DNA of 32,896 bases from an uncultured Merdimonas sp. Lineage in GTDB: Bacteria; Bacillota; Clostridia; Lachnospirales; Lachnospiraceae. Location: contig CALWAZ010000021.1 in assembly GCA_944375725.1 (NCBI GenBank), positions 1 to 32,896 of the forward strand. The letters run 5' to 3'. A program made the translations under genes and the position numbers. The notes under the pieces are model-generated. The model searched no databases. It worked only from the letters and a program-made list of their open reading frames with translations, and was not told where the DNA came from. Below are positions 1 through 32,720 of the stretch, in pieces. Numbering within the stretch: the first letter of the stretch is position 1; every line of letters starts with the position of its first letter.

Positions 1-52
1 TGATATACTACTAGCGACAATACCATAATTCGGCATGGTGTATGAACGAAAC

Positions 53-58
53 AGGAGG
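53..58 (+). promoter_or_regulatory. Shine-Dalgarno site that fixes the rfbB start
   Basis: A perfect AGGAGG ends 10 bases before the ATG at 69. The upstream in-frame ATG at 42 has no comparable site and would add nine residues in front of the Rossmann motif, so 69 is the better start. I see no convincing promoter in bases 1-52. Confidence 0.8.
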
Positions 59-68
59 AAATTTTCGG

Positions 69-1151
69 ATGAGAACGTATCTCGTTACCGGCGGAGCCGG
101 ATTTATCGGTTCCAATTACATTCATTATATGTTCCGCAAATACGGAGATGAAATCCGTATTATTAATGTGGACGCGCTGACCTACGCGGGAAATCTGGAG
201 AATCTGAAGGATGTGGAAAATCGGGAAAACTACACCTTTATCAAGGCAGATATCCGCGACAGAGAGGCGATTGAAAAGATTTTTGAGGAAAATGACATCG
301 ACCGGGTGGTGCATTTCGCGGCGGAGAGCCATGTGGACCGCAGCATCCGCAACCCGGAGATTTTTGTGGAGACGAACGTGCTGGGCACCCTTGTGATGCT
401 GAACGCGGCAAAGAAAGCCTGGGAGCTGCCGGACGGAAGCTTTAAGCCGGACAAGAAGTTCCTTCATGTGTCCACGGACGAGGTATACGGATCACTGGAA
501 GAGGGAGATACTTATTTTTATGAGACGACTCCTATCGATCCCCACAGCCCCTATTCTGCCAGCAAGGCCTCCTCGGACATGCTGGTAAAGGCATACTGGG
601 ATACCTACCGTTTCCCCATGAATATCACAAACTGCAGCAATAACTACGGCCCCTATCAGTTCCCGGAGAAGCTGATTCCGCTGATTATCAACAACGCTCT
701 CCAGGGCAAGAAGCTGCCGGTATACGGAGATGGCAGGAACGTCCGTGACTGGCTCTATGTGGACGATCACGCCAAGGCCATCGACATGGTTCAGGAAAAG
801 GGACGCCTGGGCGAGCGCTACAATATCGGCGGCCACAATGAGAAGCAGAATATTGAGATTATCAATATCATTCTGGAGACTCTTCAGGAGATGCTGCCGG
901 ATGATGACCCGAGAAAGAAACTGGTAAGCAAGGATCTGATCACCTATGTGACAGACCGCAAGGGCCATGACCGCCGGTATGCCATCGCGCCGGACAAGAT
1001 CAAGAAAGAGATCGGCTGGTATCCGGAGACCATGTTCAAGGATGGAATCCGTCTGACTATCCAGTGGTATTTTGAGCATGAGGACTGGATGAAGAATGTG
1101 ACCAGCGGTGATTATCAGAAATATTATCAGGAAATGTATCAGGATAAATAA
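69..1151 (+). CDS. rfbB: dTDP-glucose 4,6-dehydratase
   Basis: This cytoplasmic short-chain dehydrogenase/reductase converts dTDP-glucose to dTDP-4-keto-6-deoxyglucose using bound NAD. It is the branch-point step for dTDP-L-rhamnose and for dTDP-4-amino-4,6-dideoxyhexoses. The N-terminus MRTYLVTGGAGFIGS carries the glycine-rich NAD motif at about residues 8-14. The catalytic TDE triplet is near 136-138 (VSTDEVYG) and the YxxxK pair is Tyr162/Lys166 (YSASK). At 360 residues the length is normal for RfbB/RmlB. The start at 69 is chosen for the AGGAGG site; an in-frame ATG at 42 is possible but lacks one. It heads the rfbB-rfbA-rfbC group here. Its product can feed both RfbC and the WecE-type aminotransferase at 15263, which ties the two halves of the locus together. 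Identification is firm. Confidence 0.97.
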   Translation: MRTYLVTGGAGFIGSNYIHYMFRKYGDEIRIINVDALTYAGNLENLKDVENRENYTFIKADIRDREAIEKIFEENDIDRVVHFAAESHVDRSIRNPEIFVETNVLGTLVMLNAAKKAWELPDGSFKPDKKFLHVSTDEVYGSLEEGDTYFYETTPIDPHSPYSASKASSDMLVKAYWDTYRFPMNITNCSNNYGPYQFPEKLIPLIINNALQGKKLPVYGDGRNVRDWLYVDDHAKAIDMVQEKGRLGERYNIGGHNEKQNIEIINIILETLQEMLPDDDPRKKLVSKDLITYVTDRKGHDRRYAIAPDKIKKEIGWYPETMFKDGIRLTIQWYFEHEDWMKNVTSGDYQKYYQEMYQDK

Positions 1152-1184: not shown

Positions 1185-2054
1185 ATGAAAGGAATTATTC
1201 TGGCCGGAGGCGCCGGAACCAGACTTTACCCGCTGACAAAGGCGATTTCCAAGCAGATCATGCCGGTCTATGACAAGCCCATGATTTATTACCCGCTGTC
1301 CACGCTGATGCTGGCCGGCATCCGTGAGGTGCTGATTATCTCCACACCCCGGGATCTTCCGGTATTCAAGGAGCTGTTTGGAGACGGCTCCCAGATTGGC
1401 ATGGATATCAGCTATGCGGTGCAGGAGTATCCGAGAGGACTGGCTGATGCCTTCCTGATCGGAGAATCCTTTATCGGAACAGACCGGGTGGCCCTGGTTC
1501 TGGGAGACAATATCTTCTACGGACAGAGCTTCTCCAAAGTGTTGAAGCGTGCCGCGGAGCGGGACCATGGAGCCACGATTTTCGGCTATTATGTAAAGGA
1601 TCCCCGGGAGTACGGCGTGGTGGAGTTTGATGAGAACGGAAAGGCTCTTTCGATTGAAGAGAAGCCGGAGCATCCCAAGTCAAACTACGCGGTTCCCGGC
1701 CTGTATTTTTATGATAATGATGTGATCGAAATCGCCAAGGGCGTGAAGCCTTCTGCCAGAGGTGAGATTGAGATCACAAGCATCAACAATGAATATCTCC
1801 GCAGGGGAACGCTTCAGGTGGAGACCCTGGGCCGCGGCTTTGCCTGGCTGGATACCGGAAACCATGACGCGCTTCTTGACGCGGCTGACTTTGTGGCAGC
1901 CTTCCAGAAGCGCCAGGGCATGTATATTTCCTGTATCGAGGAGATTGCCTACCGGCGGGGCTTTATTGACAGAGAACAGCTTCTGGAGCTGGCAAAGCCC
2001 CTTTTGAAGACGGCCTACGGCCAGTATCTGGTGGATGTGGCAAACGGCCTGTAA
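1185..2054 (+). CDS. rfbA: Glucose-1-phosphate thymidylyltransferase
   Basis: The enzyme joins glucose-1-phosphate and dTTP to give dTDP-glucose, the first committed step of dTDP-sugar synthesis, in the cytoplasm. The N-terminal nucleotide-binding signature [11 protein letters not shown] lies at residues 8-18, followed by [16 protein letters not shown], both hallmarks of RfbA/RmlA. The metal-binding LGDNIFYG segment is near residue 110 and the [20 protein letters not shown] segment follows. At 289 residues the length is typical. A GGAGG site stands a few bases before the ATG. It lies 33 bases after rfbB and 26 before rfbC, as in a normal rfb operon. The short gap contains a small hairpin without a T-run, so read-through is expected. 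Confidence 0.97.
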
Positions 2055-2080: not shown

Positions 2081-2632
2081 ATGGGAAAGATTACAGTAGA
2101 GACCTGTCCCATAGAGGGACTGAAAGTGATTACGCCCGCGGTTTTCGGAGATGAGCGCGGCTATTTCATGGAGACGTACAATTACAATGATTTTAAGGAG
2201 GCAGGCATCGATCTGACTTTTGTGCAGGACAATCAGTCTTCCTCCAAGAAAGGCGTGCTGCGGGGACTGCATTTCCAGATCAATCATCCCCAGGACAAGA
2301 TTGTCCGGGTGGTCAGCGGAGAAGTCTTTGATGTGGCAGTAGATCTCAGGGAAGGATCCCCGACCTACGGACAGTGGTACGGCGTGCACCTTTCCGCGGA
2401 AAATAAAAAGCAGTTTTTTATTCCGAAAAATTTCGCCCATGGATTTCTTGTGCTTTCCGATCACGCGGAGTTTGCGTACAAATGCACGGATTTCTACCAT
2501 CCGAATGACGAAGGCGGTATCATATGGAATGATCCGGATATCGGAGTGGAATGGCCGATCCCGGAAGGAATGGAGCTGACCATTTCCGAGAAAGACCAGA
2601 AATGGGGCGGAATCAAGGAGTTGAGAAAATAG
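2081..2632 (+). CDS. rfbC: dTDP-4-dehydrorhamnose 3,5-epimerase
   Basis: This small cupin-fold enzyme epimerises C3 and C5 of dTDP-4-keto-6-deoxyglucose to give dTDP-4-keto-L-rhamnose. The family core is clear: LRGLHFQ with catalytic His64, QDKIVRVVSGEVFDVAVDLR after it, and FAYKCTDFY with the catalytic-type Tyr133. At 183 residues it is normal size. A GGGAG-type ribosome site precedes the ATG. The presence of RfbC argues that L-rhamnose (or another L-sugar) is made. The usual next enzyme, RfbD reductase, is not encoded in this window, so it must lie upstream or elsewhere. The next ORF starts two bases after the stop codon. Confidence 0.97.
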   Translation: MGKITVETCPIEGLKVITPAVFGDERGYFMETYNYNDFKEAGIDLTFVQDNQSSSKKGVLRGLHFQINHPQDKIVRVVSGEVFDVAVDLREGSPTYGQWYGVHLSAENKKQFFIPKNFAHGFLVLSDHAEFAYKCTDFYHPNDEGGIIWNDPDIGVEWPIPEGMELTISEKDQKWGGIKELRK

Positions 2633-2633
2633 C

Positions 2634-3455
2634 ATGGGAGAGAAGAGACAGCTGACCGCGGAGGTCTTTATCGATACGGGAAAGGATTTCCGTCCGGAGG
2701 ACTCTCTGACGGTTCCCTATACCTGCGTCCTGGGCGAGACCGTGGCGCTGGAGTTTGACTTAAGCGGCTTTGAGCATACCTGCGGCTTCCGGTTTGACCC
2801 GCTGCTGGAGGACAGCAGCATGGTCCGGCTGCAGGAGATCTCTCTGACCTATGAGGATGGGGAGACGAAAGAAATTGATTTTTCCAAGATCAAGACCAAC
2901 AGTGATGTGGATTTTGAGCCGGTTTTCGTGTATCTTCATAAAGACCCTAAGTTTTTTGTGGAGGAGGCTCTCTGCCTGAAGCTGACAGGGGCAAAGGTGC
3001 GCTTTCAGGTGCTGGAGCTGGGCCTGGCGGAAAAAGAATACTGGCAGGATATCAAGAAGCACAGTGTGTCCGAGAAGGAAAAGGAACAGCTGCTTGGCAA
3101 GCTGGACGCCGCCATGAAGGAGAACCACGCTCTGGAAAAGGAAAACCGCAGGCTGAAGATCGAAGAGGCAGACATCTACTCTTCCGGAATCTGGAAGCTG
3201 CAGCATGACGCCAGAGGCCCCTGGAAGGTTATTTTCGGAAAAGGCAATATCCTGACATTCCTGGCGTCTGTCTATATCGCGCTCTGCACAGAGCTTTTTA
3301 TTTTCAACGATGCCTATTACTCCACGCCCCGGCCCAATGATCAGGTGCTGACATTCAGCTTTCTTCGTTTCGGCCTGGTATGGCTTGGAGCTTTTGTGCT
3401 GATCGCCGTGATAAACAGTCTGATTCAGAAAGGATACCGCCGTGAGCTTGCTTAG
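2634..3455 (+). CDS. Unknown coiled-coil membrane protein before the polysaccharide exporter
   Basis: I do not recognise a named family. Residues 1-135 look beta-rich and soluble, with a pattern (DLSGFEHTCGFRFDPL, then VRLQEISLTY) like the sandwich domains sometimes found on polysaccharide-locus transferases. Residues about 140-180 are charged and heptad-like, so probably a coiled coil. An SSGIWKL motif follows, and then two membrane segments at about 203-222 and 245-265, with a short basic tail. The N-terminal domain has no signal sequence and should be cytoplasmic. The gene starts two bases after rfbC and overlaps the exporter permease by 14 bases, so translation is probably coupled. I infer an accessory of the exporter or a scaffold for the transferases, since a similar coiled coil plus WKL motif opens the GT2 protein at 5030. 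Function is unproven. Confidence 0.8.
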   Translation: MGEKRQLTAEVFIDTGKDFRPEDSLTVPYTCVLGETVALEFDLSGFEHTCGFRFDPLLEDSSMVRLQEISLTYEDGETKEIDFSKIKTNSDVDFEPVFVYLHKDPKFFVEEALCLKLTGAKVRFQVLELGLAEKEYWQDIKKHSVSEKEKEQLLGKLDAAMKENHALEKENRRLKIEEADIYSSGIWKLQHDARGPWKVIFGKGNILTFLASVYIALCTELFIFNDAYYSTPRPNDQVLTFSFLRFGLVWLGAFVLIAVINSLIQKGYRRELA

Positions 3456-4230
3456 CGTTTTTGTCAAATACAGAGATCTCATCAATCAGCTTGTGATGAG
3501 AGATATCAAAACAAAATACAGACGGTCCATTCTGGGACTTCTCTGGACGGTGCTGAATCCTCTTCTGATGATGACAGTGCTGTCTATTGTCTTTTCATAC
3601 TTCTTTCAGCGGTATGGAGATGTGGACAATTTCCCGGTATATCTGCTCTGCGGCCAGGTGATTTTCAACTTTTTCAATGAATCAACCAGCATAGCCATGG
3701 GCTCTATTGTTCACAGCGGCGAGCTGATCAAGAAGGTGTATGTGCCGAAATATCTGTTTCCCATCACGAAGGTCATGTCCAGCGGCGTCAATCTGCTGGC
3801 TTCCATGATCGCGCTGGTGATTGTGATGGTGGTGACCCGGTCAAGGGTGACGCCTACGGTCCTTCTGGCGGTGCTGCCCCTTTTGTATGTGCTTTTGTTT
3901 TCCACAGGCGTGAGCCTGTTTTTGTCGGCGGTGGCGGTGAGCTTCCGGGATTTGATGCATCTGTACAGCGTTCTGACCACGGCCTGGATGTATCTGACGC
4001 CGGTGATCTATCCCATGTCGATCCTGGAAGAGGCTCCGCGCTGGGTGGTATTTATCATCAATGCCAATCCGCTGACGGCTTTTATCAAGGTATTCCGCGC
4101 CGTGGTGCTGGACGGAGTGACGCCGCCGGCAATTCTGCATGTGCAGAGCCTTGTCTGGTGCGCCATCGCGCTGATTGTGGGATCTCTGGTATTTAAGAAA
4201 TCCCAGGACAGCTTCATTTTGAAGATATAG
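3442..4230 (+). CDS. ABC-2 type polysaccharide export permease (Wzm/TagG type)
   Basis: This is the membrane half of an ABC exporter that moves a polyprenyl-linked polysaccharide out of the cytoplasm. The N-terminus YRDLINQLVMRDIKTKYRRS followed by ILGLLWTVLNPLLMM is the family signature of ABC-2 permeases for O-antigen, teichoic acid and rhamnan chains. About six membrane segments are visible, and the segment with LTPVIYPMS near residue 190 is also typical. At 262 residues the length is right. Translation starts at a GTG, 14 bases inside the previous gene, with AAAGGA eight bases upstream. Its ATPase partner follows nine bases after the stop. With rhamnose genes and an LCP ligase nearby, a rhamnose-rich wall polysaccharide is the likely cargo, but the cargo is inferred. 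Confidence 0.94.
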   Translation: MSLLSVFVKYRDLINQLVMRDIKTKYRRSILGLLWTVLNPLLMMTVLSIVFSYFFQRYGDVDNFPVYLLCGQVIFNFFNESTSIAMGSIVHSGELIKKVYVPKYLFPITKVMSSGVNLLASMIALVIVMVVTRSRVTPTVLLAVLPLLYVLLFSTGVSLFLSAVAVSFRDLMHLYSVLTTAWMYLTPVIYPMSILEEAPRWVVFIINANPLTAFIKVFRAVVLDGVTPPAILHVQSLVWCAIALIVGSLVFKKSQDSFILKI

Positions 4231-4239
4231 GAGAGAGTC

Positions 4240-4989
4240 ATGAAGATAGAGAATGCGATAGAAGTAAATAACGTGTCCATGTGCTTCAACCTCTCCAGAC
4301 AAAAGGTGGACAATATCAAGGAATATGTAATCAAGGCTCTGAAGCGCCAGCTCTTTTATGAGGAATTCTGGGCGCTGCAGGATGTGAGTTTTGAGGTCCG
4401 GAAAGGGGATTCCGTGGGCCTGGTGGGTATGAACGGCTCCGGAAAGAGCACCATGCTGAAGATTATCGCGGGAGTGCTGAAGCCCACAAAGGGAAGCGTG
4501 GAGACTACCGGGACCATCGCGCCCATGATCGAGCTGGGCGCGGGCTTCGACCATGATCTGACGGCCCGGGAAAACATTTTTCTGAACGGTGCGCTGATCG
4601 GCTACCCCAAAGAAATGCTGGAGGAGCGCTTTGACGAGATCATTTCCTTCGCGGGGCTGGAGCGGTTTGTGGATGTGCCTATCAAGAACTTTTCTTCCGG
4701 TATGCTGGCCAGGCTTGGCTTCTCCATCGCGACGATTGTGGATGCGGATATTTTGATCATCGATGAGATTCTGTCGGTGGGAGACTATCAGTTCCAGAAT
4801 AAATGTAAAAAACGTATCCGGGAGATGATGGACCGGAATACTACGGTGCTGTTTGTGTCCCACAGCATCGAGCAGGTGAAGGAAATCTGCAACCGGGCAA
4901 TCTGGATTGACAAGGGACATATCCGGATGATGGGCGAGGCGGAAGAGGTCTGCGATGCCTATGAGGATCCGAATGAAAAACTGATGTAG
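4240..4989 (+). CDS. ABC transporter ATP-binding protein for polysaccharide export (Wzt/TagH type)
   Basis: This is the ATPase partner of the permease just upstream. Walker A is GMNGSGKS at residues 63-70, the signature is FSSGM at 151-155, Walker B is ILIIDE at 171-176 and the switch histidine is His208 (VSHS). The segment APMIELGAGFDHDLTARENI is diagnostic for the polysaccharide and teichoic acid export subgroup. At 249 residues it ends soon after the nucleotide-binding domain. It therefore lacks the C-terminal carbohydrate-binding domain found in some Wzt proteins that read a chain-end cap. Export should then not depend on a Wzt-read terminal modification, unless another protein, perhaps the one at 2634, does the reading. 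Confidence 0.94.
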   Translation: MKIENAIEVNNVSMCFNLSRQKVDNIKEYVIKALKRQLFYEEFWALQDVSFEVRKGDSVGLVGMNGSGKSTMLKIIAGVLKPTKGSVETTGTIAPMIELGAGFDHDLTARENIFLNGALIGYPKEMLEERFDEIISFAGLERFVDVPIKNFSSGMLARLGFSIATIVDADILIIDEILSVGDYQFQNKCKKRIREMMDRNTTVLFVSHSIEQVKEICNRAIWIDKGHIRMMGEAEEVCDAYEDPNEKLM

Positions 4990-11660: not shown

Positions 11661-11699
11661 GAAATTGACACGGACAGGAAAAGGAAAGGGTGAAGAAAC

Positions 11700-13544: not shown

Positions 13545-13545
13545 G

Positions 13546-15276
13546 ATGGGAAAAGTACAAAAGAACAGCACGGGACTTCTTTGTGCCGCGGCTGCCGCGT
13601 TATATTTTCTTCTGATTTTCATTCTGATTCCGTTTACTTACGGAATCAACGATGATATGACGTTGCGGGACATTGCCTCCGGGGCGGTGTCGGGCACGCC
13701 GGACGGCCATCTGATCTATGTGCAGTATGTATTGGGAAAGCTTATAAGTCTTCTTTATATGGCAGTGCAGGGGATAGACTGGTACGCGCTCGTCTGGCTG
13801 GGACTTATGCTGTTTTGTTTTGGCCTGCTCCTGTACCGGACAGCTGCGCTTTGCCGGTGTATAAAGAGAAGCCTGCTGGCAGGGCTGTTTGGAGCTCTTG
13901 TGCTGTTTACTCTTGTTTATCTGGACTATTTCGTAAATTTTCAGTACACGATCGTGGCTTCTATCACAGGCGGAACAGCAGTCTTTTTCTATTTTACCAT
14001 GGATCCGGAAAAACCGCTGTATGTGCGTCTTCGGGAATACGCTGTGATAGCTCTGCTGGCCTGGATTACATACTGTATCCGTTCTCAGGTATTTATGCTG
14101 GCAGTGCCCTTCGGCGCGGTTTTGTTTTTGGGCAAAAAGAAAATCCGGATAGCTGAAAAAGCAATGTTTCTGGCAGCAGTTCTGGCAGGAATTTTTGTTG
14201 TTTTCATTATAGAGCGGGGAGCGTACTCCAGCCAGGAATGGAAAGATTTCCGAAATTTTAACCAGGCGAGAACGGAGATCTATGATTATTATGGTGTTCC
14301 GCCCTATTCGGAAAATGAAGCTTTTTATGAATCCATAGGAATGGAAGAGTGTGATGTGGTAAATCTGGAACGGTACCGTCTCTATTTTACAGACGGGCTG
14401 GAGACAGGAAAGCTGGAAGAGACTGCGGAATACGCTGAAAAACTGTGGAAAGAGACACAGACGCCGATACAAAGGGTAAAAAACGGAATCAAGCTTGCAG
14501 CAAAAGGATTTGGGGCAGAAAGCAATCTTCTGGTAAATATTGCGGCAAAACTGTTTCTTGCTGCTGTACTAATTCGGGGCTGGAAGAGGAGACGGAAAGA
14601 TTTTTGGATGGGCGGCAGTCTGCTGCTGATAGAGGGCGCATTATGGCTGTATCTGGGCTGTGAAGGAAGACTGCCTGACAGAGTGGGCGCGGCTCTTCTG
14701 ATTACGGAATTTTCCTGCGCGCTGGCTCTTTTGTTTCATGGCTGCATGGATGAGGGAAAAGAAGTTTCCCTGGTAAAAAGCAGAGTTTTGGCTGCCGGAT
14801 TTTTTGTTCTGGCTGCGGCTGTGTGCGGACTGCATATCGCATCTGTAAGGGAGGAAAGGATGTCAGCTGCCCGGAGAAATGAAGAATTTGAGCGTTTCAA
14901 TGCCTATTTTGCGGAGCACAGCGAAAATGTCTATTTTTATCCGGTGGATTTTTCCGGAGATTATACGGAAAACCTGAGAATTTTCAGAAGCTTTGAGGTT
15001 TCAAACGGGTTTCCTCTGGGAGGCTGGCTCACATTTTCTCCCTTAAGAGAGGCAGGGCTTGGAAAATATGGCATTCAGGAGGTTGACAAAGCCCTGATTG
15101 AAAAGGATAATATATATTTGGTTATGACCAGCGCGTCAAGCAGGATCGATGAGCATTATCTTCAGAAAGACATAGAGATAAAGTGGGAACAGACAGATCA
15201 GGCTCCTGTATTTCAGACAGAGGTGCCGGTCTGGAAGCTCTCTGCCGAGGGGGAAACAAATGATGATATATTTTAA
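13546..15276 (+). CDS. GT-C-like membrane protein, tandem family copy 3
   Basis: This is the third tandem paralogue, 576 residues, starting one base after copy 2 ends. It carries INDDMTLRDIASGAVSG at residues 34-50 with Asp36-Asp37, then TPDGHLIYVQYVLG. Further on are FQYTIVASITGG, IRSQVFMLAVP, DYYGVPPYSENE, LWLYLGCEGRLPDRV, and in the external tail ENVYFYPVDF and LGGWLTFSPL. By eye the DNA is AT-richer than copies 1 and 2, and it abuts the AT-rich amino-sugar cassette, so it may have travelled with that cassette. Its last 17 bases overlap the aminotransferase start. As the copy nearest the amino-sugar genes it is my best candidate for the transferase that uses their lipid-linked product, but this rests on position only. 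Confidence 0.8.
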   Translation: MGKVQKNSTGLLCAAAAALYFLLIFILIPFTYGINDDMTLRDIASGAVSGTPDGHLIYVQYVLGKLISLLYMAVQGIDWYALVWLGLMLFCFGLLLYRTAALCRCIKRSLLAGLFGALVLFTLVYLDYFVNFQYTIVASITGGTAVFFYFTMDPEKPLYVRLREYAVIALLAWITYCIRSQVFMLAVPFGAVLFLGKKKIRIAEKAMFLAAVLAGIFVVFIIERGAYSSQEWKDFRNFNQARTEIYDYYGVPPYSENEAFYESIGMEECDVVNLERYRLYFTDGLETGKLEETAEYAEKLWKETQTPIQRVKNGIKLAAKGFGAESNLLVNIAAKLFLAAVLIRGWKRRRKDFWMGGSLLLIEGALWLYLGCEGRLPDRVGAALLITEFSCALALLFHGCMDEGKEVSLVKSRVLAAGFFVLAAAVCGLHIASVREERMSAARRNEEFERFNAYFAEHSENVYFYPVDFSGDYTENLRIFRSFEVSNGFPLGGWLTFSPLREAGLGKYGIQEVDKALIEKDNIYLVMTSASSRIDEHYLQKDIEIKWEQTDQAPVFQTEVPVWKLSAEGETNDDIF

Positions 15277-16393
15277 TAATCCGCCTTTTGTGGGAACAGA
15301 ACTGGAGTATATCAGGCAAGCTGTGGAAAATCAAAAAATCTGCGGCGATGGGCCGTTTACAAAAAAGTGCAGTCAGTGGCTGGAAGAAACTGCTGGCACA
15401 GCGAAAGCGCTTCTGACGACTTCCTGCACTCATGCAACGGAAATGGCGGCTCTTCTGCTGAATATTCAGCCGGGAGACGAAGTGATTATGCCGGCTTATA
15501 CGTTTGTCTCCACTGCGGACGCCTTTGTACTGCGGGGAGCGAAAGTGATTTTTGTAGATATTCGTCCAGATACCATGAATATAGATGAAACGCAGATAGA
15601 AGACGCAGTCACAGAACGGACAAAGGCGGTTGTTCCTGTGCACTATGCAGGCGTTTCCTGTGAAATGGATAAAATCATGGAAATAGCGGAAAAGCATCAT
15701 TTGAAAGTGGTGGAGGACGCAGCTCAGGGGATACTGAGTACATATAAAGGGAAAATGCTGGGAACTATAGGAGATTTTGGCTGTTACAGTTTCCATGAAA
15801 CGAAAAATTTCAGTATGGGAGAAGGCGGAGCTCTCCTGATTAAGGATGGACGATATATTGAACAGGCGGAAATTATTCGGGAAAAAGGAACGAACCGCTC
15901 CAAGTTCTTCAGGGGACAGATTGATAAATATACCTGGGTAGACGCAGGAAGTTCCTATCTGCCCAGCGATTTGAACGCAGCTTATCTGTGGGCCCAGCTG
16001 GAGCAGGCAGACCGGATTTTTAAAGATCGGATGAAATCGTGGGGGCTTTATTATGAACTGCTGTCGGAACTGGAAAAGGAGGGAATTCTTTCTCTTCCGG
16101 TTGTCCCGGAACATTGTACTCACAATGCCCATATGTTCTATGTGAAGGCAAAGAGTTTGGAAGAAAGGACCCGGCTGATAGAGTACCTGAAGCAAAAAGG
16201 GATACTGGCGGTCTTTCACTATATTCCGCTTCATACAGCGCCGGCGGGCAGAAAATTCGGGGCATTCCATGGAGAAGATATTTATACGACCAGAGAAAGT
16301 GAGCGCCTGCTCCGCCTGCCTATGTATTATGGCCTGGAGGAGGAAAAGATCGTATATATCACAGAGAAAATAAAAGAGTTTTATGGAATATAA
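15263..16393 (+). CDS. wecE: dTDP-4-amino-4,6-dideoxygalactose transaminase (WecE/RffA)
   Basis: This is a PLP enzyme of the DegT/DnrJ/EryC1 fold that aminates dTDP-4-keto-6-deoxyglucose, with glutamate as donor in the known family, to dTDP-4-amino-4,6-dideoxy-D-galactose (Fuc4N). It matches enterobacterial WecE closely along its length: the VGTELEYI start, CGDGPFTKKC, IQPGDEVIMPAYTFVSTADA, VPVHYAGVSCEMD, and IREKGTNRSKFFRGQIDKYTW. The PLP lysine is Lys181 in FHETKN and the pyridine-contacting Asp152 is in VEDAAQ. At 376 residues it is standard size. GAGGGGG precedes two adjacent ATGs at 15260 and 15263; WecE homologues start like the second. The substrate would come from the RfbB at 69. No WecD-type N-acetyltransferase is visible here, while an ATP-grasp ligase lies two genes on. 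Confidence 0.92.
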   Translation: MIYFNNPPFVGTELEYIRQAVENQKICGDGPFTKKCSQWLEETAGTAKALLTTSCTHATEMAALLLNIQPGDEVIMPAYTFVSTADAFVLRGAKVIFVDIRPDTMNIDETQIEDAVTERTKAVVPVHYAGVSCEMDKIMEIAEKHHLKVVEDAAQGILSTYKGKMLGTIGDFGCYSFHETKNFSMGEGGALLIKDGRYIEQAEIIREKGTNRSKFFRGQIDKYTWVDAGSSYLPSDLNAAYLWAQLEQADRIFKDRMKSWGLYYELLSELEKEGILSLPVVPEHCTHNAHMFYVKAKSLEERTRLIEYLKQKGILAVFHYIPLHTAPAGRKFGAFHGEDIYTTRESERLLRLPMYYGLEEEKIVYITEKIKEFYGI

Positions 16394-16401
16394 AGATTTC
16401 C

Positions 16402-16407
16402 GGGAGG
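16402..16407 (+). promoter_or_regulatory. Shine-Dalgarno site pointing to a TTG start
   Basis: GGGAGG stands eight bases before the TTG at 16416. The in-frame ATG at 16383, inside the aminotransferase gene, has only AT-rich sequence before it. The site favours TTG and gives an N-terminus MISVIVPCYN, as expected for ArnC/GtrB proteins. Confidence 0.6.
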
Positions 16408-16415
16408 TTGGAAGA

Positions 16416-17357
16416 TTGATTTCAGTCATAGTGCCGTGTTATAATTCAACACAAATGCTGAACCGGCTGGTAGATGAGACAAGGAAGATATTTCGCAGGC
16501 TTCAGATCTCAGATTATGAATTTGTGCTTGTGAATGACTGCTCTCCGAATCTGGAAAGCTGTGAGCGTATTCTGAAACTGGGAAGAGAAAATCCCGATAT
16601 TAAAGTCATAGACTTGGCGAAAAATACAGGACAGGCAAATGCGCAGCTGACAGCGCTTAATTATGCGGAAGGTGACATCATCATTAATATGGATGATGAT
16701 ATGCAGACGCATCCGGCCAATATTCCAGTTCTTTTGGAGAAACTGGAAGAAGGTTATGATCTTGTCCTTGGGAAATATAAGAAGAAGCGTCATTCGGCAT
16801 TCCGCAATCTTCTGACAAAGATGGACAATGTGTTTGAGCATATTGTTATGGGAAAACCCAGAGGACTGGATTTCACCAGTTTCTGGGTCACCAGAAAATA
16901 TATACGGGACGAGCTGATTCATTATACACATCCCTACGCTTTTATGGAAGGACTGTTTTTAAGAACAGCCGGAAAAATTGCAAATGTGGAGATTGAGCAT
17001 TTTGACAGAACAGAGGGAAAGTCAGGATATAATCTGAAAAAGCTGGTCAAGCTGTGGTCAAATTTTACAAACTTTACAGTTTTTCCTTTGCGTATCGCTG
17101 GAGTTTTAGGGATTACTTTTTCACTGATTGGTTTTGTAGCAGCTCTTGTAGTCGGGATCAGAAAGATATTAGATCCTTCCATGGTGGCAGGGTATGCTTC
17201 TATTATCTGCTTTATGATGATCTTTTTTGGTGTAGTTCTCCTGTTTATGGGTGTTATAGGAGAATATGTGGGAAGAATTTTCATGTGTATTAACAGTGCG
17301 CCGCAGTTTGTGGTGAAACAGACGATTAATGTGAAACAGACGGAGGAGAACTCCTGA
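16416..17357 (+). CDS. ArnC/GtrB-like undecaprenyl-phosphate glycosyltransferase
   Basis: This enzyme of about 313 residues has a GT2 domain from its first residue (ISVIVPCYNS). The metal motif MDDDMQTHP lies at about 92-100, in the same place and context as the DADLQ motif of ArnC. Two C-terminal membrane segments end with FMGVIGEYVGRIF, an ending typical of ArnC and GtrB. Known relatives load a sugar or 4-amino sugar from a nucleotide carrier onto undecaprenyl phosphate on the inner face of the membrane. Next to WecE, the likely donor is dTDP-Fuc4N, free or modified by the next gene's product. An ATG at 16383 would overlap the aminotransferase by 11 bases, but the GGGAGG before TTG 16416 argues for the shorter form. 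The family is clear, the sugar inferred. Confidence 0.88.
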   Translation: MISVIVPCYNSTQMLNRLVDETRKIFRRLQISDYEFVLVNDCSPNLESCERILKLGRENPDIKVIDLAKNTGQANAQLTALNYAEGDIIINMDDDMQTHPANIPVLLEKLEEGYDLVLGKYKKKRHSAFRNLLTKMDNVFEHIVMGKPRGLDFTSFWVTRKYIRDELIHYTHPYAFMEGLFLRTAGKIANVEIEHFDRTEGKSGYNLKKLVKLWSNFTNFTVFPLRIAGVLGITFSLIGFVAALVVGIRKILDPSMVAGYASIICFMMIFFGVVLLFMGVIGEYVGRIFMCINSAPQFVVKQTINVKQTEENS

Positions 17358-18623
17358 ATGGAACAGAGACTTATGATTTTGGGTTCAATGGATGAGTTTG
17401 TTGAGCTGGTAAAAAAGGCTAAGAACAGAGGCATTTATACGGTGGTTTGTGACGGCTATCCAGATGGACCGGCAAAGCAATATGCGGATAAGGCTTATAA
17501 TATTGACATCCGAAAGATAGAAGAGGTGGCGGATGTCTGCAAAAAGGAGAAGCTGAATGGCATCATAGCTTCCTTTTCGGATATTCTGTTTGAGTATCTG
17601 GTGAAAATAGCACATCGGGCAGGATTGAAAACGTATTGCACTCCGGAAAAAGCGGCTTTTCTCCGGGAAAAATCCAAAATGAAAAAAATGTTTGATGAAT
17701 TGGATATTCCTACACCGAAATCCCAAAAAATTCATTTTGATTTTCAGGATCAGGAATTGAAAGAGTTTACTTTTCCTGTGGTAATGAAGCCGGTGAATGG
17801 ATATGGATCACGGGGAATCTATATTGTAGATAGTATCGGAGAGATACGGCAGAAATTTCGCCAGACCTCCGGGTACTCTACATATCCGGATGATATTCTG
17901 GTAGAAAGCTATAATGACGGATATGAATTTAATATGATGAACTGGATGGCAGACGGGGAAGTGTATACACTTGGTCTCGCAGACCGGGAAAAATCTGTGG
18001 AAGTAAAAGGGGATATTCCGCATGTAAGCCGTGTCTGTTATCCGTCCTGCATTATTGATTCAGTTTATGAAGAGGCCAGAGCTGTTGTCAAAAAGGTGGC
18101 TGACTATACAGGAATACGAACCGGTCCGCTGTCTATGCAGTTCTTTTACCGGCCTGGACAGGGAATTGAGGTTTGTGAGTGTGCCGGAAGGCTTTTTGGA
18201 TATGAGCATGAGCTGGTGACCTACGGAAGCGGATTTGATATTGAAGAGATGCTGCTGGATTATGTTTATGATGAAGAACAGATGAAAACTCTTCTGAAAA
18301 GACATGACGCTCATTTCCCAAGGCAGGCAGCAGGATTGTATTTTCATGGGTATGAAGGAAAAATCTGTGATATGTCCGGAGTAAGAAAGCTGGTGGAAGA
18401 GCTTCATCCGGTTCAGAGCATGCTGTACTACCAGGAGGGGGATAGGATTAGCCATGGAGTTGGCGCAAAACCCTATCTTGTCAGATTATATCTGGAGTCA
18501 GATACCCGTCAGGAGCTTGACAGGCTTTCGCAAAAAGCTTTTCAGGAAATGAGGGTGACAGGAGAAAGCGGGCAGAATCTGGTGTACCATAATCAGCTTC
18601 CTGATTATAGTCTGGCCAGATAA
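17358..18623 (+). CDS. ATP-grasp ligase, possible amino-sugar modifying enzyme
   Basis: This 421-residue protein has the PurK/PurT/carbamoyl-phosphate-synthase-like ATP-grasp layout. An N-terminal domain covers about residues 1-100, followed by a lid and ATP domain with VVMKPVNGYGSRGIY near 138-152 (phosphate-binding Lys and Gly-rich loop) and ILVESYNDGYEFNMM near 175. The metal-site strand EVCECAGR is at 271-278. In most relatives that strand reads E-x-N-x-R; here Glu274 and Arg278 are kept but Ala276 stands where Asn is usual. ATP-grasp enzymes join a carboxylate to an amine or thiol through an acyl phosphate. Between an amino-sugar GT2 and a glutamate-type transporter, attachment of an amino acid to the sugar 4-amino group is an attractive inference, not a demonstrated role. 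GGAGGAG precedes the ATG, which follows the previous stop directly. Confidence 0.85.
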   Translation: MEQRLMILGSMDEFVELVKKAKNRGIYTVVCDGYPDGPAKQYADKAYNIDIRKIEEVADVCKKEKLNGIIASFSDILFEYLVKIAHRAGLKTYCTPEKAAFLREKSKMKKMFDELDIPTPKSQKIHFDFQDQELKEFTFPVVMKPVNGYGSRGIYIVDSIGEIRQKFRQTSGYSTYPDDILVESYNDGYEFNMMNWMADGEVYTLGLADREKSVEVKGDIPHVSRVCYPSCIIDSVYEEARAVVKKVADYTGIRTGPLSMQFFYRPGQGIEVCECAGRLFGYEHELVTYGSGFDIEEMLLDYVYDEEQMKTLLKRHDAHFPRQAAGLYFHGYEGKICDMSGVRKLVEELHPVQSMLYYQEGDRISHGVGAKPYLVRLYLESDTRQELDRLSQKAFQEMRVTGESGQNLVYHNQLPDYSLAR

Positions 18624-18639
18624 GTGAAGGAGGGCTTTT

Positions 18640-20022
18640 ATGGAATTTTCTCCTCTATCGTTACTGTATGACATTTGTCTAATGTCTCTTTTGATTTTTA
18701 TAGCTAAAATTATCCGTACAAAGGTGAAGCTGTTTCAGAATTTTTATATCCCTACAGCCCTAATTGCAGGTTTTCTGGGAGTAATTGGAGGCCCATATGG
18801 ATTGGATATTCTGCCCTTCAGTGCTCAGGCTTCTTCCTATGCGGGAATATTGATCGCTGTATTGTTTGCCACAATGTACCTTGGAAGAAAGGAAAAGGCA
18901 AGCTTTAAGCAGATGCTGGACAGAGTAGGAGATACATTTCTGTTGAATACGGCTGCTGAAGTGGGGCAGTTTGGCATTGCGATTCTTTTTGGAATTTTTG
19001 TGCTGGGTGTCTTGTTCCCAGGGATCAATTCCTGTTTTGCGCTTATGATGCCGGCAGGCTTCGCAGGAGGACATGGAACGGCAGCGGCCATAGGCAGTGT
19101 CCTGGAAAATGCAGGATGGGCAGACGCTGTCACAATTGGTCAGACATTTGCAACTTTTGGACAGCTCCTGGGGGTTTTCGGAGGAGTAGTCATTATCAAT
19201 TACTGCACCCGGCATGGGTATACGCGTATTATAAAAAAAGTAAATGAAATGCCGGAAGACATGAGAACAGGTCTGATTCAGAAAGAAAACCGCACTTCTA
19301 TGGGGGAAAATACAGTCAGTCCCCTATCGCTGGATCCTCTGACCTGGCATTTATGTCTGGTAATGGTCTCAGCGGGTGCTGCCTATCTGATCAATTCTTT
19401 TCTTGTAAAATGGTTTCCGAATGTCTCCATTCCCATTTATGGACTGGCTCTGATATGTGGAATTGGAGTTCAGAAGATTCTGAAGGTATGCAGGCTTGAT
19501 GATTATGTGGATCACAAAGTGATTTCCAGAATCGGAAGCAGTGTGGCAGATTATCTGGTAGGATTTGGGGTAGCTACCATTAATATCAGTGTGGTAATTC
19601 AGTATTGGGAGCCCATGCTTCTGATGTGCCTGCTTGGAGCGGTTTATGTCATTCTGTACTTCTTTGTGATTTCCCGTATCTTTTTCCGAAATTTCTGGGT
19701 GGAACGGGGAATTTATATTTATGGATGGGCCACAGGTGTTATGAGTATTGCCGTATTGCTTTTGAGAATTGTGGATCCGGAATTCAAGAGTGGTGTTCTC
19801 GAAGACTCCGGTTTCGCATGGATCTTTGTCTCTTTTGTAGATATTGCGTGTGTGACCTTTATTCCCCTGCTTCTGCTTCAGAATTTGGGGCTTGTCACCG
19901 GAATTGTTCTTGTGGCAGCTGCGGCATTCTGTCTTCTGATTTCAAAGCTGCGTTATGGGACGGCAAAAGTAAAAGCAGATGAACTGCATCCTGGCGAAAA
20001 AGAGGTTTTAGATACATTGTAA
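18640..20022 (+). CDS. gltS: Sodium/glutamate symporter family protein (GltS type)
   Basis: This integral membrane protein of 460 residues has about ten or more hydrophobic segments. The motif AGFAGGHGTAAAIG, with GGHGTAAA at residues 143-150, is the hallmark of the GltS family, which takes up glutamate with sodium ions. Homology seems to run the full length; enterobacterial GltS is about 400 residues, so this one is somewhat long, with a charged loop at about 205-230 and a polar C-terminal tail. AGGAGGG lies just before the ATG. A GltS homologue is unusual inside a polysaccharide locus. Directly after an ATP-grasp ligase, it may supply the amino acid that is joined to the amino sugar, or it may have a new substrate. 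The family is clear and the role here is inferred. Confidence 0.9.
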   Translation: MEFSPLSLLYDICLMSLLIFIAKIIRTKVKLFQNFYIPTALIAGFLGVIGGPYGLDILPFSAQASSYAGILIAVLFATMYLGRKEKASFKQMLDRVGDTFLLNTAAEVGQFGIAILFGIFVLGVLFPGINSCFALMMPAGFAGGHGTAAAIGSVLENAGWADAVTIGQTFATFGQLLGVFGGVVIINYCTRHGYTRIIKKVNEMPEDMRTGLIQKENRTSMGENTVSPLSLDPLTWHLCLVMVSAGAAYLINSFLVKWFPNVSIPIYGLALICGIGVQKILKVCRLDDYVDHKVISRIGSSVADYLVGFGVATINISVVIQYWEPMLLMCLLGAVYVILYFFVISRIFFRNFWVERGIYIYGWATGVMSIAVLLLRIVDPEFKSGVLEDSGFAWIFVSFVDIACVTFIPLLLLQNLGLVTGIVLVAAAAFCLLISKLRYGTAKVKADELHPGEKEVLDTL

Positions 20023-20036
20023 AGCAGAGGAGAAAA

Positions 20037-20390
20037 ATGAAAAAAAAGCATATCAGTTTAAAAAGTATTTTGATTTTACAGCTGGTGATTGTGATTTATA
20101 CTCTGTCTGGTGTGGCGGCTAAGGGAGCGGCCGGATACGAGGTGCTGTCATGGCAGTTTATTTTATTCTATGGTCTGGAAATTGCCATTCTTGGAATTTA
20201 TGCTATCTTGTGGCAGCAGATTATTAAAAGATTCGATCTTTCAGTAGCGTATGCCAATCGTTCTATGGCGGTTTTGTGGTCGCTGGTCTGGGCGGTGATT
20301 TTCTTTCATGAAAAGGTTACAGTAACTAATGTGCTGGGCGTGTTGATTGTCCTGGCAGGTACAATGTTGGTGAATACAGATGATGAATAA
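20037..20390 (+). CDS. Small four-span EamA/SMR-like protein, possible ArnE/ArnF-type flippase subunit 1
   Basis: This 117-residue protein has four membrane segments and is the size of half an EamA transporter. The YANRSMAVLWSLVWAVIFFHEKV segment followed by LGVLIVLAGTMLV is the standard EamA/SMR end. The first membrane helix has no glutamate, the residue multidrug SMR pumps need, so drug export is unlikely. The next gene encodes a second protein of the same type and overlaps this one by 11 bases. Such pairs, as in ArnE-ArnF, form heterodimers that flip undecaprenyl-phosphate amino sugars. Here they would move the product of the ArnC-like enzyme at 16416. The fold is clear, the lipid substrate inferred. 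Confidence 0.82.
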   Translation: MKKKHISLKSILILQLVIVIYTLSGVAAKGAAGYEVLSWQFILFYGLEIAILGIYAILWQQIIKRFDLSVAYANRSMAVLWSLVWAVIFFHEKVTVTNVLGVLIVLAGTMLVNTDDE

Positions 20391-20718
20391 GTATATGTTA
20401 TTGCTGCTTGCCTCTGTAATAGTAGCGTCATTTTCGCAGATTCTTTTGAAAAAGAGCGCGCTGAAGACCTATCCGTCCATCTGGCGCGAATATGTAAATC
20501 CCTGGGTGATTATTGGCTATGGGATGATGGTTCTTTCCACTTTGCTTACGGTTTTTGCTTACAGAGAAGTGGATTACAAAAATGGCCCAGTAATAGATTC
20601 CGTGGGATTTTTACTGGTTATGCTTTGGAGCAGGATCTTTTTCGGGGAGAAAATTACAAAGAGAAAAGTAATAGGAAATCTCCTGATTCTGGCAGGCATC
20701 TTTGTGTTTTACAGCTGA
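20380..20718 (+). CDS. Small four-span EamA-like protein, possible ArnE/ArnF-type flippase subunit 2
   Basis: This 112-residue partner of the previous gene also has four membrane segments. Its start, LLASVIVASFSQILLKKSAL, closely follows the ArnE/ArnF pattern (small residues, then Q, then basic residues after the first helix). It ends with FFGEKITKRKVIGNLLILAG, the usual EamA end. It starts at ATG 20380 or the adjacent ATG 20383, inside the previous gene and without a strong ribosome site, so translation is probably coupled and the two proteins made in equal amounts. I infer a heterodimeric flippase for a lipid-linked amino sugar. A generic metabolite transporter is the main alternative. Confidence 0.82.
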   Translation: MMNKYMLLLLASVIVASFSQILLKKSALKTYPSIWREYVNPWVIIGYGMMVLSTLLTVFAYREVDYKNGPVIDSVGFLLVMLWSRIFFGEKITKRKVIGNLLILAGIFVFYS

Positions 20719-20749: not shown

Positions 20750-21151
20750 ATGGAAGAAGAAAAATTTGTGAAAAAAATTTTCAGATTTACAATTCCTCAT
20801 GGCTGGATTCTGGCCTGTCTGATGCCGGTCCTGGGCTATGTGATGTTTGAGACGACTACTGGAAACCTGATGTCCATACGCTTTGACAGAGCACTATTGA
20901 ACCTGGTGTTTTATTATCTGATTTACACATTTGTGTTTCTTGTGATCAACAGATACCGGGCGGCGGTAATTGGCACGACGGCTGTGCTTTATCTGATTGC
21001 TGCTGTGGACTATTATGTGGTGCAGTTCAAGGGAAGTCCTCTTTTGCTTCCCCAGGATCTGACAGCATGGAAAACGGCTGCGGCTGTGCTTTCCGGCTAT
21101 CAGATTACTCCCTCCCGCAGTGTTGTACTGGGAGCTGTCATGATGGTCTGA
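20750..21151 (+). CDS. N-terminal membrane fragment of interrupted phosphoglycerol transferase
   Basis: This 133-residue fragment holds three complete membrane segments and the first half of a fourth, then stops at TGA 21149-21151. The ATG at 20750 has no good ribosome site; a GTG at 20768 is an alternative start. It cannot be active by itself, because the catalytic domain is encoded beyond the stop. Confidence 0.6.
   Translation: MEEEKFVKKIFRFTIPHGWILACLMPVLGYVMFETTTGNLMSIRFDRALLNLVFYYLIYTFVFLVINRYRAAVIGTTAVLYLIAAVDYYVVQFKGSPLLLPQDLTAWKTAAAVLSGYQITPSRSVVLGAVMMV
21149..21151 (+). other. In-frame TGA that interrupts the phosphoglycerol transferase
   Basis: The triplet lies in frame between GTC and ATC, and the frame stays open and homologous on both sides. 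TGG would encode Trp, which fits the hydrophobic helix. I see no hairpin of the kind needed for selenocysteine insertion directly after it. Confidence 0.8.
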
Positions 21152-21163
21152 ATCATTTTTCTT

Positions 21164-22472: not shown

Positions 22473-22901
22473 ATGAAGAAACTGTTTGCGCAAATTATAA
22501 AATTCGGAGCTGTGGGCTTTCTGTGCTTTTTTATTGACTATTTCATTATGATAGGCCTGACGGAGCTTGTGGGTATCCCGTCGCTGATTTCCAGCGGCTG
22601 TTCCTACACGGTTTCCACGATTGTAAACTACATTTTAAGCGTTACCGTGGTTTTTGACGCGGATAAGGAAGCCAATAAGATTGTGCAGTTTATCGTGTTT
22701 GTGGTCCTGAGCCTGATAGGCCTGGGCATCAATCAGCTGTGTATGTGGGGCGGAACCTCCTGGCTGGAAAGCCTGATGGAGCAGAGTCAGGCACTGGCGG
22801 CCTACTCACGCTATGCTTATATGGTTGTAAAAATCTTTGCGACTGCTGTGGTTATGGTATATAATTTCATTACCAGAAAGATTTTTATCGAGAAACACTG
22901 A
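22473..22901 (+). CDS. GtrA family membrane protein, possible lipid-linked sugar flippase
   Basis: This 142-residue protein has four membrane segments and the GtrA opening IIKFGAVGFLCFFIDYFIMIGL, then SSGCSYTVSTIVNYILSVTVVF and the closing YNFITRKIFIEKH. GtrA-type proteins accompany GtrB-type enzymes and are thought to flip undecaprenyl-phosphate sugars for use by external GT-C transferases, for example in O-antigen and teichoic acid glycosylation. Here it may serve the GT2 at 8962, since the ArnC-like GT2 at 16416 has its own EamA-like pair nearby. A ribosome site (GGAGGAA) precedes the ATG. The first CotH-like gene follows at once. Confidence 0.9.
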   Translation: MKKLFAQIIKFGAVGFLCFFIDYFIMIGLTELVGIPSLISSGCSYTVSTIVNYILSVTVVFDADKEANKIVQFIVFVVLSLIGLGINQLCMWGGTSWLESLMEQSQALAAYSRYAYMVVKIFATAVVMVYNFITRKIFIEKH

Positions 22902-22916
22902 ATGCAGTGCAGAAAG

Positions 22917-22923: not shown

Positions 22924-22928
22924 CGGAT

Positions 22929-31484: not shown

Positions 31485-31497
31485 ATGTTGGGAAACA

Positions 31498-31504
31498 GAA
31501 AGGG
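31498..31504 (+). promoter_or_regulatory. Shine-Dalgarno site fixing the LCP start
   Basis: GAAAGGG is seven bases before the ATG at 31512. The earlier in-frame ATG at 31485, directly after the previous stop, has no site. Confidence 0.6.
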
Positions 31505-31511
31505 TTATGTT

Positions 31512-32720
31512 ATGGCAACCAATACGAAAGGCAGAAATGCGAAAAAGAGAAAAGAAAGCTATCAGGAACACGGATCACGCAGGGAGCGGGATGAATACGG
31601 CGAGTATAAACTAAGCCGCAAAGACCGGAAAAGGCTGAAAAAGGCAAAGCGCAGGAAAAAGCTGATTGCTGTTTTGGCCGTGGAGTTTGTTCTGCTGCTG
31701 GTTTTAGTCGGCTGCATGTTTGTAGTGGGCAAGCTGGGAAAACTGCAGAATCTGGGAGTAGATCCGGATGATGTAGGCGTGAATGAGGATATTGACGCGA
31801 ATACGGCAGAGCTGCTGAAGGGTTATACAAACATTGCGCTTTTTGGCCTGGGCTCCAGAACTCCGGGAAGCCTCGGAGCAGGAGAACTGAGCGATACCAT
31901 TATCATCGCAAGTATCAACAATGAGACCAAAGAAGTGCGGCTGATGTCCATTTACAGAGATACTTATCTGAACCGGGCGGATGACACATACGGAAAATGC
32001 AATGCGGCATACTCCAAGGGAGGCCCCAAGCAGGCCATGGAGATGCTGAATACAAATCTGGATTTGAATATTAAATATTATGTAAGTATTGATTTTACCG
32101 CGCTGATTAAGACGGTAGACCTGCTTGGCGGCGTGGAGATTGATGTGAAGCCGGAAGAGGTAGACGCAATCAACGGCTATATGTACGAGACCACAGAGAT
32201 TGCGGAAAAGGCCGAGGATGATTCCATCAATCCATATAACAGTCTGATTGAGGAACCGGGACTTCAGACACTGCACGGCGTGCAGGCCACCGCTTACTGC
32301 CGTATCCGTAAGGTCGGAAACAATGACTTTGAGAGAACAGAGCGGCAGCGCCGGGTGATTGAGCAGATTGTAGATAAGGCAAAGACGGCCGGGCTGGGAA
32401 CCATTAATTCCATGATTGATGAGGTATTCCCCCTGATCGCCACCAATATCCCGAAGACGACACTGATCGGCATGGCAGCCAGCATGATGTCCTATGAGCT
32501 GGGCGAAAGCAGCGGCTTCCCAAGTGTCCGGGCAGACGCGAGAATGGATGGACAGCAGGTGGTAGTTCCGGCTGATCTGGTGACAAATGTGTCAGAGCTG
32601 CATCAGTTCCTGTTTGATGAGGATGATTACTATCCGTCACCGACTGTACTGAGCATCAATGAGAAAATTATATCTGATACAGGAATTACAGCGAAGGAGA
32701 CCGGCAGCGCCAGTGAATAG
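31512..32720 (+). CDS. LytR-CpsA-Psr (LCP) family polymer-peptidoglycan ligase
   Basis: LCP proteins transfer polymers from undecaprenyl pyrophosphate to peptidoglycan outside the membrane. This 402-residue protein has a very basic cytoplasmic N-terminus, one membrane segment at about 50-72 and an external LCP domain. The domain shows IALFGLGSR, LSDTIIIASI with the metal-binding Asp, MSIYRDTYL with the key Arg, YYVSIDFTALIKTVDLLGGVEIDV, and YCRIRKVGNNDFERTERQRRVI, the arginine-rich pyrophosphate site. All catalytic arginines are present. It is the last gene before a terminator, which suits a role in the final attachment step of the polysaccharide built by this locus. Transfer to protein is a less likely alternative. 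Confidence 0.95.
   Translation: MATNTKGRNAKKRKESYQEHGSRRERDEYGEYKLSRKDRKRLKKAKRRKKLIAVLAVEFVLLLVLVGCMFVVGKLGKLQNLGVDPDDVGVNEDIDANTAELLKGYTNIALFGLGSRTPGSLGAGELSDTIIIASINNETKEVRLMSIYRDTYLNRADDTYGKCNAAYSKGGPKQAMEMLNTNLDLNIKYYVSIDFTALIKTVDLLGGVEIDVKPEEVDAINGYMYETTEIAEKAEDDSINPYNSLIEEPGLQTLHGVQATAYCRIRKVGNNDFERTERQRRVIEQIVDKAKTAGLGTINSMIDEVFPLIATNIPKTTLIGMAASMMSYELGESSGFPSVRADARMDGQQVVVPADLVTNVSELHQFLFDEDDYYPSPTVLSINEKIISDTGITAKETGSASE

Follow-up and report, generated by a model that had tools for sequence, protein, structure and literature searches.

The six-gene module and its products

The window analysed here is the whole of contig CALWAZ010000021.1 from an uncultured Merdimonas sp., 32,896 nucleotides in length. 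It carries six consecutive genes on the + strand, coding for a WecE-type aminotransferase, an ArnC/GtrB-like family 2 glycosyltransferase (GT2), an ATP-grasp ligase, a GltS-family carrier and two small EamA proteins. The module recurs in other genomes, and on balance it probably makes an aminoacylated 4-amino-4,6-dideoxygalactose (Fuc4N), carries it on undecaprenyl phosphate and adds it to a wall polymer. The six open reading frames (ORFs) had been proposed in a sequence-only reading; the position, strand and family of each were borne out by family scans, which covered the 29 + strand ORFs of the window with Pfam and the module also with NCBIfam. Together with the preceding gene they are:

13546..15276, + strand: multi-pass membrane protein, putatively the GT-C transferase that moves the lipid-linked amino sugar (no Pfam family)
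15260..16393, + strand: WecE, dTDP-4-keto-6-deoxyglucose 4-aminotransferase, predicted product dTDP-Fuc4N (TIGR02379, NF008687)
16383..17357, + strand: GT2 resembling ArnC and GtrB, membrane segments at its C terminus, predicted to load the sugar on undecaprenyl phosphate (PF00535)
17358..18623, + strand: ATP-grasp ligase, predicted to form an amide between an amino acid carboxylate and the 4-amino group (PF13535 and PF02786 over cut-off)
18640..20022, + strand: carrier of the GltS family, predicted to bring in the acyl donor or a precursor of it, with a putative substrate (PF03616)
20037..20390, + strand: EamA half-transporter 1, ArnE-like (PF00892)
20380..20718, + strand: EamA half-transporter 2, ArnF-like, predicted flippase pair with EamA 1 (PF00892)

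The spacing between the six module genes is, in order, -11, 0, 16, 14 and -11 bases, and the gene at 13546-15276 overlaps the wecE start by 17 bases. Because of these tight gaps and overlaps on one strand the arrangement is operon-like.

The aminotransferase exceeds the cut-offs of both WecE models (TIGR02379, 645.5 bits, cut-off 434.85; equivalog NF008687, 643.2 bits, cut-off 375), is 67% identical to E. coli WecE across 360 residues and has a solved relative in PDB entry 4piw (563 bits). The ArnB equivalog NF008658 reaches 187.8 bits, under its cut-off of 631. As judged from its family, the product would be Fuc4N with its axial 4-amine, not 4-amino-4,6-dideoxyglucose (Qui4N). The acetyltransferase WecD (TIGR02382) was not found in the genome of the window, which is 85% complete, and the E. 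coli controls were detected. A tblastn search (E 1) of the window and 109 loci likewise returned no WecD and recovered the E. coli control; ordinary N-acetylation by WecD was therefore dropped. A second DegT aminotransferase, 34% identical to WecE, is encoded elsewhere in the same genome (L001, G000:C132:2863-3894) with a GT2 stretch nearby.

The best NCBIfam model for the GT2 is ArnC (NF007986, 157.4 bits, under the cut-off of 529), and its best solved relatives are ArnC (9hwj, 139 bits) and sll0501 (109 bits), which we take to be of the GtrB type. The EamA proteins match PF00892 with 28.7 and 37.4 bits (cut-off 28.2). They had been described as ArnE/F-sized, which holds for their size, but the ArnE model (33 bits, cut-off 92) and the ArnF model (23.9 and 19.7 bits, cut-off 99) score far under their cut-offs. 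Plain membership in the Arn pathway was rejected, since ArnB, ArnC and ArnE/F all stay under the curated cut-offs. No formyltransferase (PF00551) or deacetylase family, corresponding to ArnA and ArnD, was found among the 29 ORFs. As for ArnT, the candidate GT-C genes (9921-15276) encode multi-pass proteins that match no family. The protein encoded at 13546-15276 has about 10 hydrophobic stretches and gives only noise in Pfam at E values up to 1; 13 of the 40 WecE loci described below have a relative of this protein or of one of its two paralogues, and it is the likeliest candidate for the GT-C-like transferase. Taken as a set for lipid-linked side-chain decoration of the GtrABC/GacIJKL type, the GT2, the EamA pair and a GtrA protein lie in the cluster, and the GT-C member is a predicted one.

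The carrier matches PF03616 (Glt_symporter) with 55.1 bits (cut-off 26). Neither the window protein nor the copy in the related locus L017 matched NCBIfam at E 1e-3, a library that presumably includes a curated glutamate-transporter model, and no solved relative was found by sequence. Its GGHGT loop is unchanged in eight aligned copies. GltS relatives (E 1e-30) are present in 12 of the 391 other genomes of the order and are at most 48% identical. By family the protein would be a carboxylate or amino-acid carrier, with glutamate as a guess.

Recurrence of the module

A single scan for relatives of the ATP-grasp protein gave 69 loci, which were searched by tblastn with up to 10 kb on each side. 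The nearest is L017 from an uncultured Merdimonas, with 76% identity, which points to a Lachnospiraceae type for the window. The loci include those of the cultured Blautia parvula NBRC 113351 (L035), Lactonifactor longoviformis (L037) and Adlercreutzia hattorii (L038). GT2 is present in 56 of the 69, WecE in 45 and the EamA genes in 52 and 51, with all four in 37; for the 35 full-length loci these counts are 31, 29, 29 and 29, and 24. GT2 lies on the same strand within 1.5 kb of the ATP-grasp gene in 53 of the 69 loci. The order of all six genes is kept on one strand in L017, L020 and L021, according to a test that passes over intervening genes; L020 and L021, two Gemmiger loci nearly identical to each other, have some between wecE and GT2. 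The five genes other than gltS keep their order in six further loci. A first tally left 22 genomes with no WecE near the ATP-grasp; 20 of them encode it elsewhere, and 65 of 67 genomes examined carry WecE, a count that leaves out L070 and L081, which were dropped at a stricter tblastn threshold. The sequence-only reading had named co-occurrence in other genomes as one check and a failure to co-occur as one refutation. Since the set recurs across loci, in other Firmicutes and in Coriobacteria, this objection fails. The Arn-like logic around WecE that had been suggested is supported.

Within the order of the window WecE was found in 85 of 392 genomes at E 1e-100 and with at least 60% identity in 79, the window's own counted. 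The ATP-grasp (E 1e-40) occurs in eight of the 392 genomes, six of which also have WecE (Fisher p 0.0017).

Forty of 86 places with WecE were also taken, hand-picked for genus spread; one of them, L152, was already known to hold the ATP-grasp. GT2 is found in 29 of these loci, the EamA pair in 11 and an ATP-grasp in 14. Apart from L152 the ATP-grasps are 22-28% identical, the weakest (L145) scoring 48 bits. EamA pair and ATP-grasp occur together in nine loci, the EamA pair only in two, the ATP-grasp only in five and neither in 24, an association with a Fisher p of 0.0003 (0.0001 without L152). In L138 (5138-7306) an LAL-type (L-amino-acid ligase) ATP-grasp is fused to a PALP domain, a pyridoxal phosphate (PLP) enzyme of amino-acid metabolism, whose best models, D-cysteate and D-cysteine lyases, remain under cut-off; a PALP stretch, 51-52% identical, lies between two ATP-grasps in L151 (5109-6056) and L154 (near 5029-5976). 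L126, a WecE-GT2 locus with the EamA pair only, encodes a formyltransferase (5910-6788) with ArnA as its best solved relative; the methionyl-tRNA formyltransferase and ArnA models tie for it, both under cut-off. This locus may be the same platform with a simple formyl group, and its formyltransferase suggests that blocking of the nitrogen is usual. The two ORFs scanned in L124, the other EamA-only locus, include no N-acylating enzyme. We read these loci as having one slot at the 4-amino group, occupied by differing N-acylating enzymes.

The ATP-grasp protein and its variable neighbours

No NCBIfam model scores over cut-off for the ATP-grasp protein among 25 of the 26 matches listed. The predicted ATP-grasp fold spans the whole chain, with an LAL as best match; the C-terminal LAL domain PF18603 is unmatched in the window protein and present in 14 of 120 homologues. 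The protein is 16-19% identical to the LALs BL00235, BacD/YwfE and RizA and differs from them in its neighbours, which suggest that the acceptor is the amine of a sugar rather than an amino acid. It is a likely N-acylating enzyme, as had been supposed.

What lies next to the ATP-grasp gene differs from locus to locus; of the neighbours that can be recognised, the majority encode amino-acid enzymes or carriers. By tblastn the 69 loci contain gltS in nine, a decarboxylase in 14, a small protein termed c6 in 25, an opine dehydrogenase in four and a methyltransferase in two. All 25 c6 genes lie on the same strand at most 200 bases before the ATP-grasp. The only loci shared by two types have gltS adjacent to the decarboxylase (L029, L038) or opine dehydrogenase with methyltransferase (L076); strict mutual exclusion of gltS and decarboxylase was given up because of L029 and L038. 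Of the 36 cases in which the stretch also has WecE, 33 have the accessory gene closer to the ATP-grasp, among them all eight with gltS. In L018 and L023 the decarboxylase takes the position of gltS, and the ATP-grasps of these loci are sister to those of the window and L017. Accessory types cluster on the ATP-grasp tree, with 25 changes compared to a mean of 40.6 after shuffling (0 of 200 as low); its labels come from an ORF-based tally that missed genes in eight loci, and the distant L013-L016 are outside the tree.

The decarboxylase matches N-citrylornithine decarboxylase (104 bits), diaminopimelate (DAP) decarboxylases (101 bits downward) and BtrK (88 bits); its best NCBIfam model is DAP decarboxylase with 147 bits, under the cut-off of 298. 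According to the accessible text of one report, FslC/FigC, SbnH, AcsE, MccE and BtrK share a clade with DAP decarboxylases (PMC7857480). The c6 protein, found among L035-L085 (for example L047:9027-10001), matches no Pfam or NCBIfam family and has an invariant Lys and Asp across 20 aligned rows. Its structural model has a DegT fold (pLDDT 87); the likeness is at fold level only, because the TM score is about 0.6 and the root-mean-square deviation 6.6-11. A close relationship of c6 to WecE was discarded (hhalign probability 4%).

Proposed route, alternatives and known systems

The established genes, with their order, families, recurrence and statistical links, are the ground for a proposed route in which an amide would be formed on dTDP-Fuc4N and the sugar would then be moved to undecaprenyl phosphate, flipped and handed on to a polymer. 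It draws on these further genes of the window:

42..1151, + strand: RmlB-like dTDP-glucose 4,6-dehydratase, labelled by resemblance, predicted source of dTDP-4-keto-6-deoxyglucose (PF16363, 315 bits)
1185..2054, + strand: RmlA-like glucose-1-phosphate thymidylyltransferase, labelled by resemblance (PF00483, 257 bits)
2081..2632, + strand: RmlC-like 3,5-epimerase, rhamnose branch (PF00908, 251 bits)
3442..4989, + strand: ABC-2 exporter pair, predicted polymer export (permease 3442-4230, ATPase 4240-4989; PF01061, PF00005)
31485..32720, + strand: LytR-CpsA-Psr (LCP) protein, predicted polymer attachment to peptidoglycan (PF03816, 119 bits)

An RmlD-family gene is located elsewhere in the genome (G000:C40; PF04321, 297 bits). 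The RmlA- and RmlB-type enzymes, going by their families, would provide dTDP-4-keto-6-deoxyglucose, which WecE, given its 67% identity, very probably aminates to dTDP-Fuc4N. The ATP-grasp enzyme would then activate an amino acid as acyl phosphate and join it as an amide to the 4-amino group, taking the place of WecD in E. coli or of the ArnA formyltransferase in Arn; the GltS-like carrier of the window probably takes up this donor, for which glutamate is one candidate. The ArnC-like GT2 would place the modified sugar on undecaprenyl phosphate, the EamA pair would flip it, and the GT-C-like protein, most likely that at 13546-15276, would transfer it to a rhamnose-type polymer, with the ABC transporter serving for the export of this polymer and the LCP protein for its attachment. 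In a wider version, which we put forward tentatively, WecE, the ArnC-like GT2 and the EamA pair form a fixed platform in Firmicutes and Coriobacteria with Fuc4N on undecaprenyl phosphate, and exchangeable cassettes load differing amino acids on its nitrogen. Such cassettes would combine the ATP-grasp ligase with the carrier, the decarboxylase, the DegT-fold protein, the opine dehydrogenase or a fused PLP enzyme.

Several observations weigh against aminoacylation of Fuc4N. The fold and family of the ATP-grasp leave its substrate unfixed, because the fold is common to 4dim (labelled phosphoribosylglycinamide synthetase) and PurK/PurT-type enzymes, and sequence profile searches favour 4dim (106 bits) over the LAL-type 3vot (63 bits). 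WecE is frequent in the order without this ATP-grasp (85 versus eight genomes), two of the 22 genomes without local WecE have none, and neither EamA pair nor ATP-grasp accompanies WecE in 24 of 40 loci. Since the genome is 85% complete, the lacking WecD match is not proof of absence. No accessory gene is present in 18 of the 69 loci, of which some are on contigs that end early and others are full length; the decarboxylase of L066 and L067 and the opine dehydrogenase of L061 are closer to WecE, and c6, the commonest accessory, has a predicted DegT fold and no reaction assigned. WecE presumably takes glutamate as amino donor, which would give the GltS-like carrier another use. Outside such loci GltS relatives adjoin genes for 2-hydroxyacid dehydrogenase, alanine dehydrogenase and TIM-barrel proteins, as seen in six stretches from four of the 12 genomes, and WecE and ATP-grasp were unmatched by tblastn in all six. 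The carrier had been called a glutamate symporter; its membership in the GltS family stands, but glutamate is unproven because gltS is optional (nine of 69 loci) and its relatives lie beside these dehydrogenases. With no solved relative in addition, glutamate was dropped as a proven substrate.

We consider it improbable that the ATP-grasp enzyme is a mere neighbour of the Fuc4N genes and either acts on a different part of the wall or produces a small free molecule, such as a dipeptide or an opine amide. A fold common to purine and carboxylase enzymes would agree with this, as would the five of 40 WecE loci with an ATP-grasp and no EamA pair, but the close same-strand GT2 in 53 of 69 loci, the WecE of 65 of 67 genomes and the statistical tie of the EamA pair to divergent ATP-grasps argue against it. 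There is also little probability that Fuc4N is moved free, as a cation, or N-acetylated as in Arn or the enterobacterial common antigen (ECA), with the ATP-grasp acting on another substituent and gltS feeding glutamate to WecE. The WecE, GT2 and EamA genes would suffice for a free amino sugar, two of the 11 EamA-bearing WecE loci show no ATP-grasp, and the presumed glutamate use by WecE points the same way; against it stand the fruitless WecD searches, the formyltransferase of L126 and the position of the accessory genes, gltS included, closer to the ATP-grasp than to WecE.

A more specific version of the aminoacylation route appears doubtful though possible: glutamate would be joined through its gamma carboxyl and, in relatives with the decarboxylase, decarboxylated to 4-aminobutyryl, in the manner of BtrJ and BtrK, which act on a carrier protein when butirosin is made. 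The replacement of gltS by the decarboxylase beside the sister ATP-grasps of L018 and L023 and the adjacency of both in L029 and L038 are consistent with it. So are the scores that link the decarboxylase with FslC and BtrK, members of a clade in which some enzymes have conjugated amino acids as substrates, according to the accessible part of the report (PMC7857480). Evidence on the other side is the DAP decarboxylase as best NCBIfam model (under cut-off), a GltS substrate suggested only by family, and the 48 of 69 loci with neither gltS nor decarboxylase. Of the butirosin paper, the part available names BtrJ and BtrK, no more.

Among known systems, the Arn pathway, which adds aminoarabinose (Ara4N) to lipid A, shares with the module a DegT-fold 4-aminotransferase, an ArnC-like GT2, two small EamA proteins and, if the proposed route holds, an amino sugar blocked at its nitrogen ahead of lipid transfer. 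Arn differs in using a UDP-pentose with ArnB in contrast to a dTDP-hexose with WecE, a formyltransferase in contrast to the ATP-grasp, and lipid A in contrast to a putative Gram-positive wall polymer. The Fuc4NAc branch of ECA (RffG, RffH, WecE, RffC/WecD) has the same dTDP-glucose route to dTDP-Fuc4N with a WecE 67% identical, but it employs WecD, which was not found here, and undecaprenyl pyrophosphate in place of the predicted undecaprenyl phosphate; no repeat-unit flippase or polymerase family is among the Pfam matches of the 29 ORFs, for which no dedicated search was made. The conjugate-then-decarboxylate systems BtrJ/BtrK and FslA/FslC resemble the 14 of 69 related loci in which the ligase and an alanine-racemase-fold decarboxylase occur together; they differ in their carrier protein, none of which was noticed or searched for here, and the window itself is without decarboxylase.

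The following comparisons draw on the accessible text of the reports. In Campylobacter jejuni the TupA-like ATP-grasp domain of Cj1438 amidates capsular glucuronate (PMC11800379), likewise an ATP-grasp amide on a capsule sugar, where the sugar is the carboxylate (GlcA) and here would be the amine. Clostridium acetobutylicum CA_C2189 is an 'ATP-grasp amino acyl ligase' adjoining sugar genes, as here, in a cluster for whose DUF4910 amino-sugar acylation was suggested; that text mentions no WecE-ArnC-EamA set (PMC4000134). DUF4910 is absent from the window ORFs scanned. In Gram-negative polysaccharides, Qui4N or Qui3N residues are described that bear N-acetylalanyl, N-acetylglycyl or related groups (PMC3210612). 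The claim that no Gram-positive pathway with this gene set has been described agrees with the open-access literature at the level of titles and abstract beginnings, in which WecE with ATP-grasp, ArnC-like GT2 and EamA pair was not met in Gram-positives; because aminoacyl amino sugars as such are known in Gram-negatives, novelty would be limited to the Gram-positive lipid-carrier route. Where 12,939 genomes were surveyed for sugar pathways, Fuc4NAc is given, in the accessible part, for Gammaproteobacteria only (PMC7725333), in contrast to the 79 genomes with WecE in the order of the window.

Should the products of WecE bear amino acids there in place of acetyl groups, they would be an overlooked class of wall sugars in anaerobes common in guts. 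If the acyl group retains a free amino group, the wall would gain positive or zwitterionic charge. A charged, amino-acid-bearing wall would bear on cationic-peptide resistance, phage adsorption and immune sensing. The modular charging of the wall would, if true, be the equivalent, borne on a sugar, of D-alanylation in teichoic acids and of Ara4N in lipid A.

Several further genes lie around the module. An extra RmlB-like short-chain dehydrogenase/reductase of about 350 amino acids, 21-25% identical to the window RmlB, is encoded near the ATP-grasp module in Coriobacteria (L027, L028, L036, L041, L054). Downstream of the EamA pair a gene similar to lipoteichoic acid (LTA) synthase, with sulfatase fold (20750-22450), is cut into two same-frame ORFs by a single stop codon; no counterpart turned up in L017, which is otherwise alike and has gtrA behind the EamA pair. 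More GT2s, together with GtrA and a membrane protein with DUF6020 (22473-22901, 7000-9924), suggest that the cluster of the window specifies another lipid-linked sugar decoration besides this one. Within the polysaccharide cluster, 22902-27658 encodes a VTC-domain protein, DUF4956 and a pair of CotH kinases, which L017 has as well.

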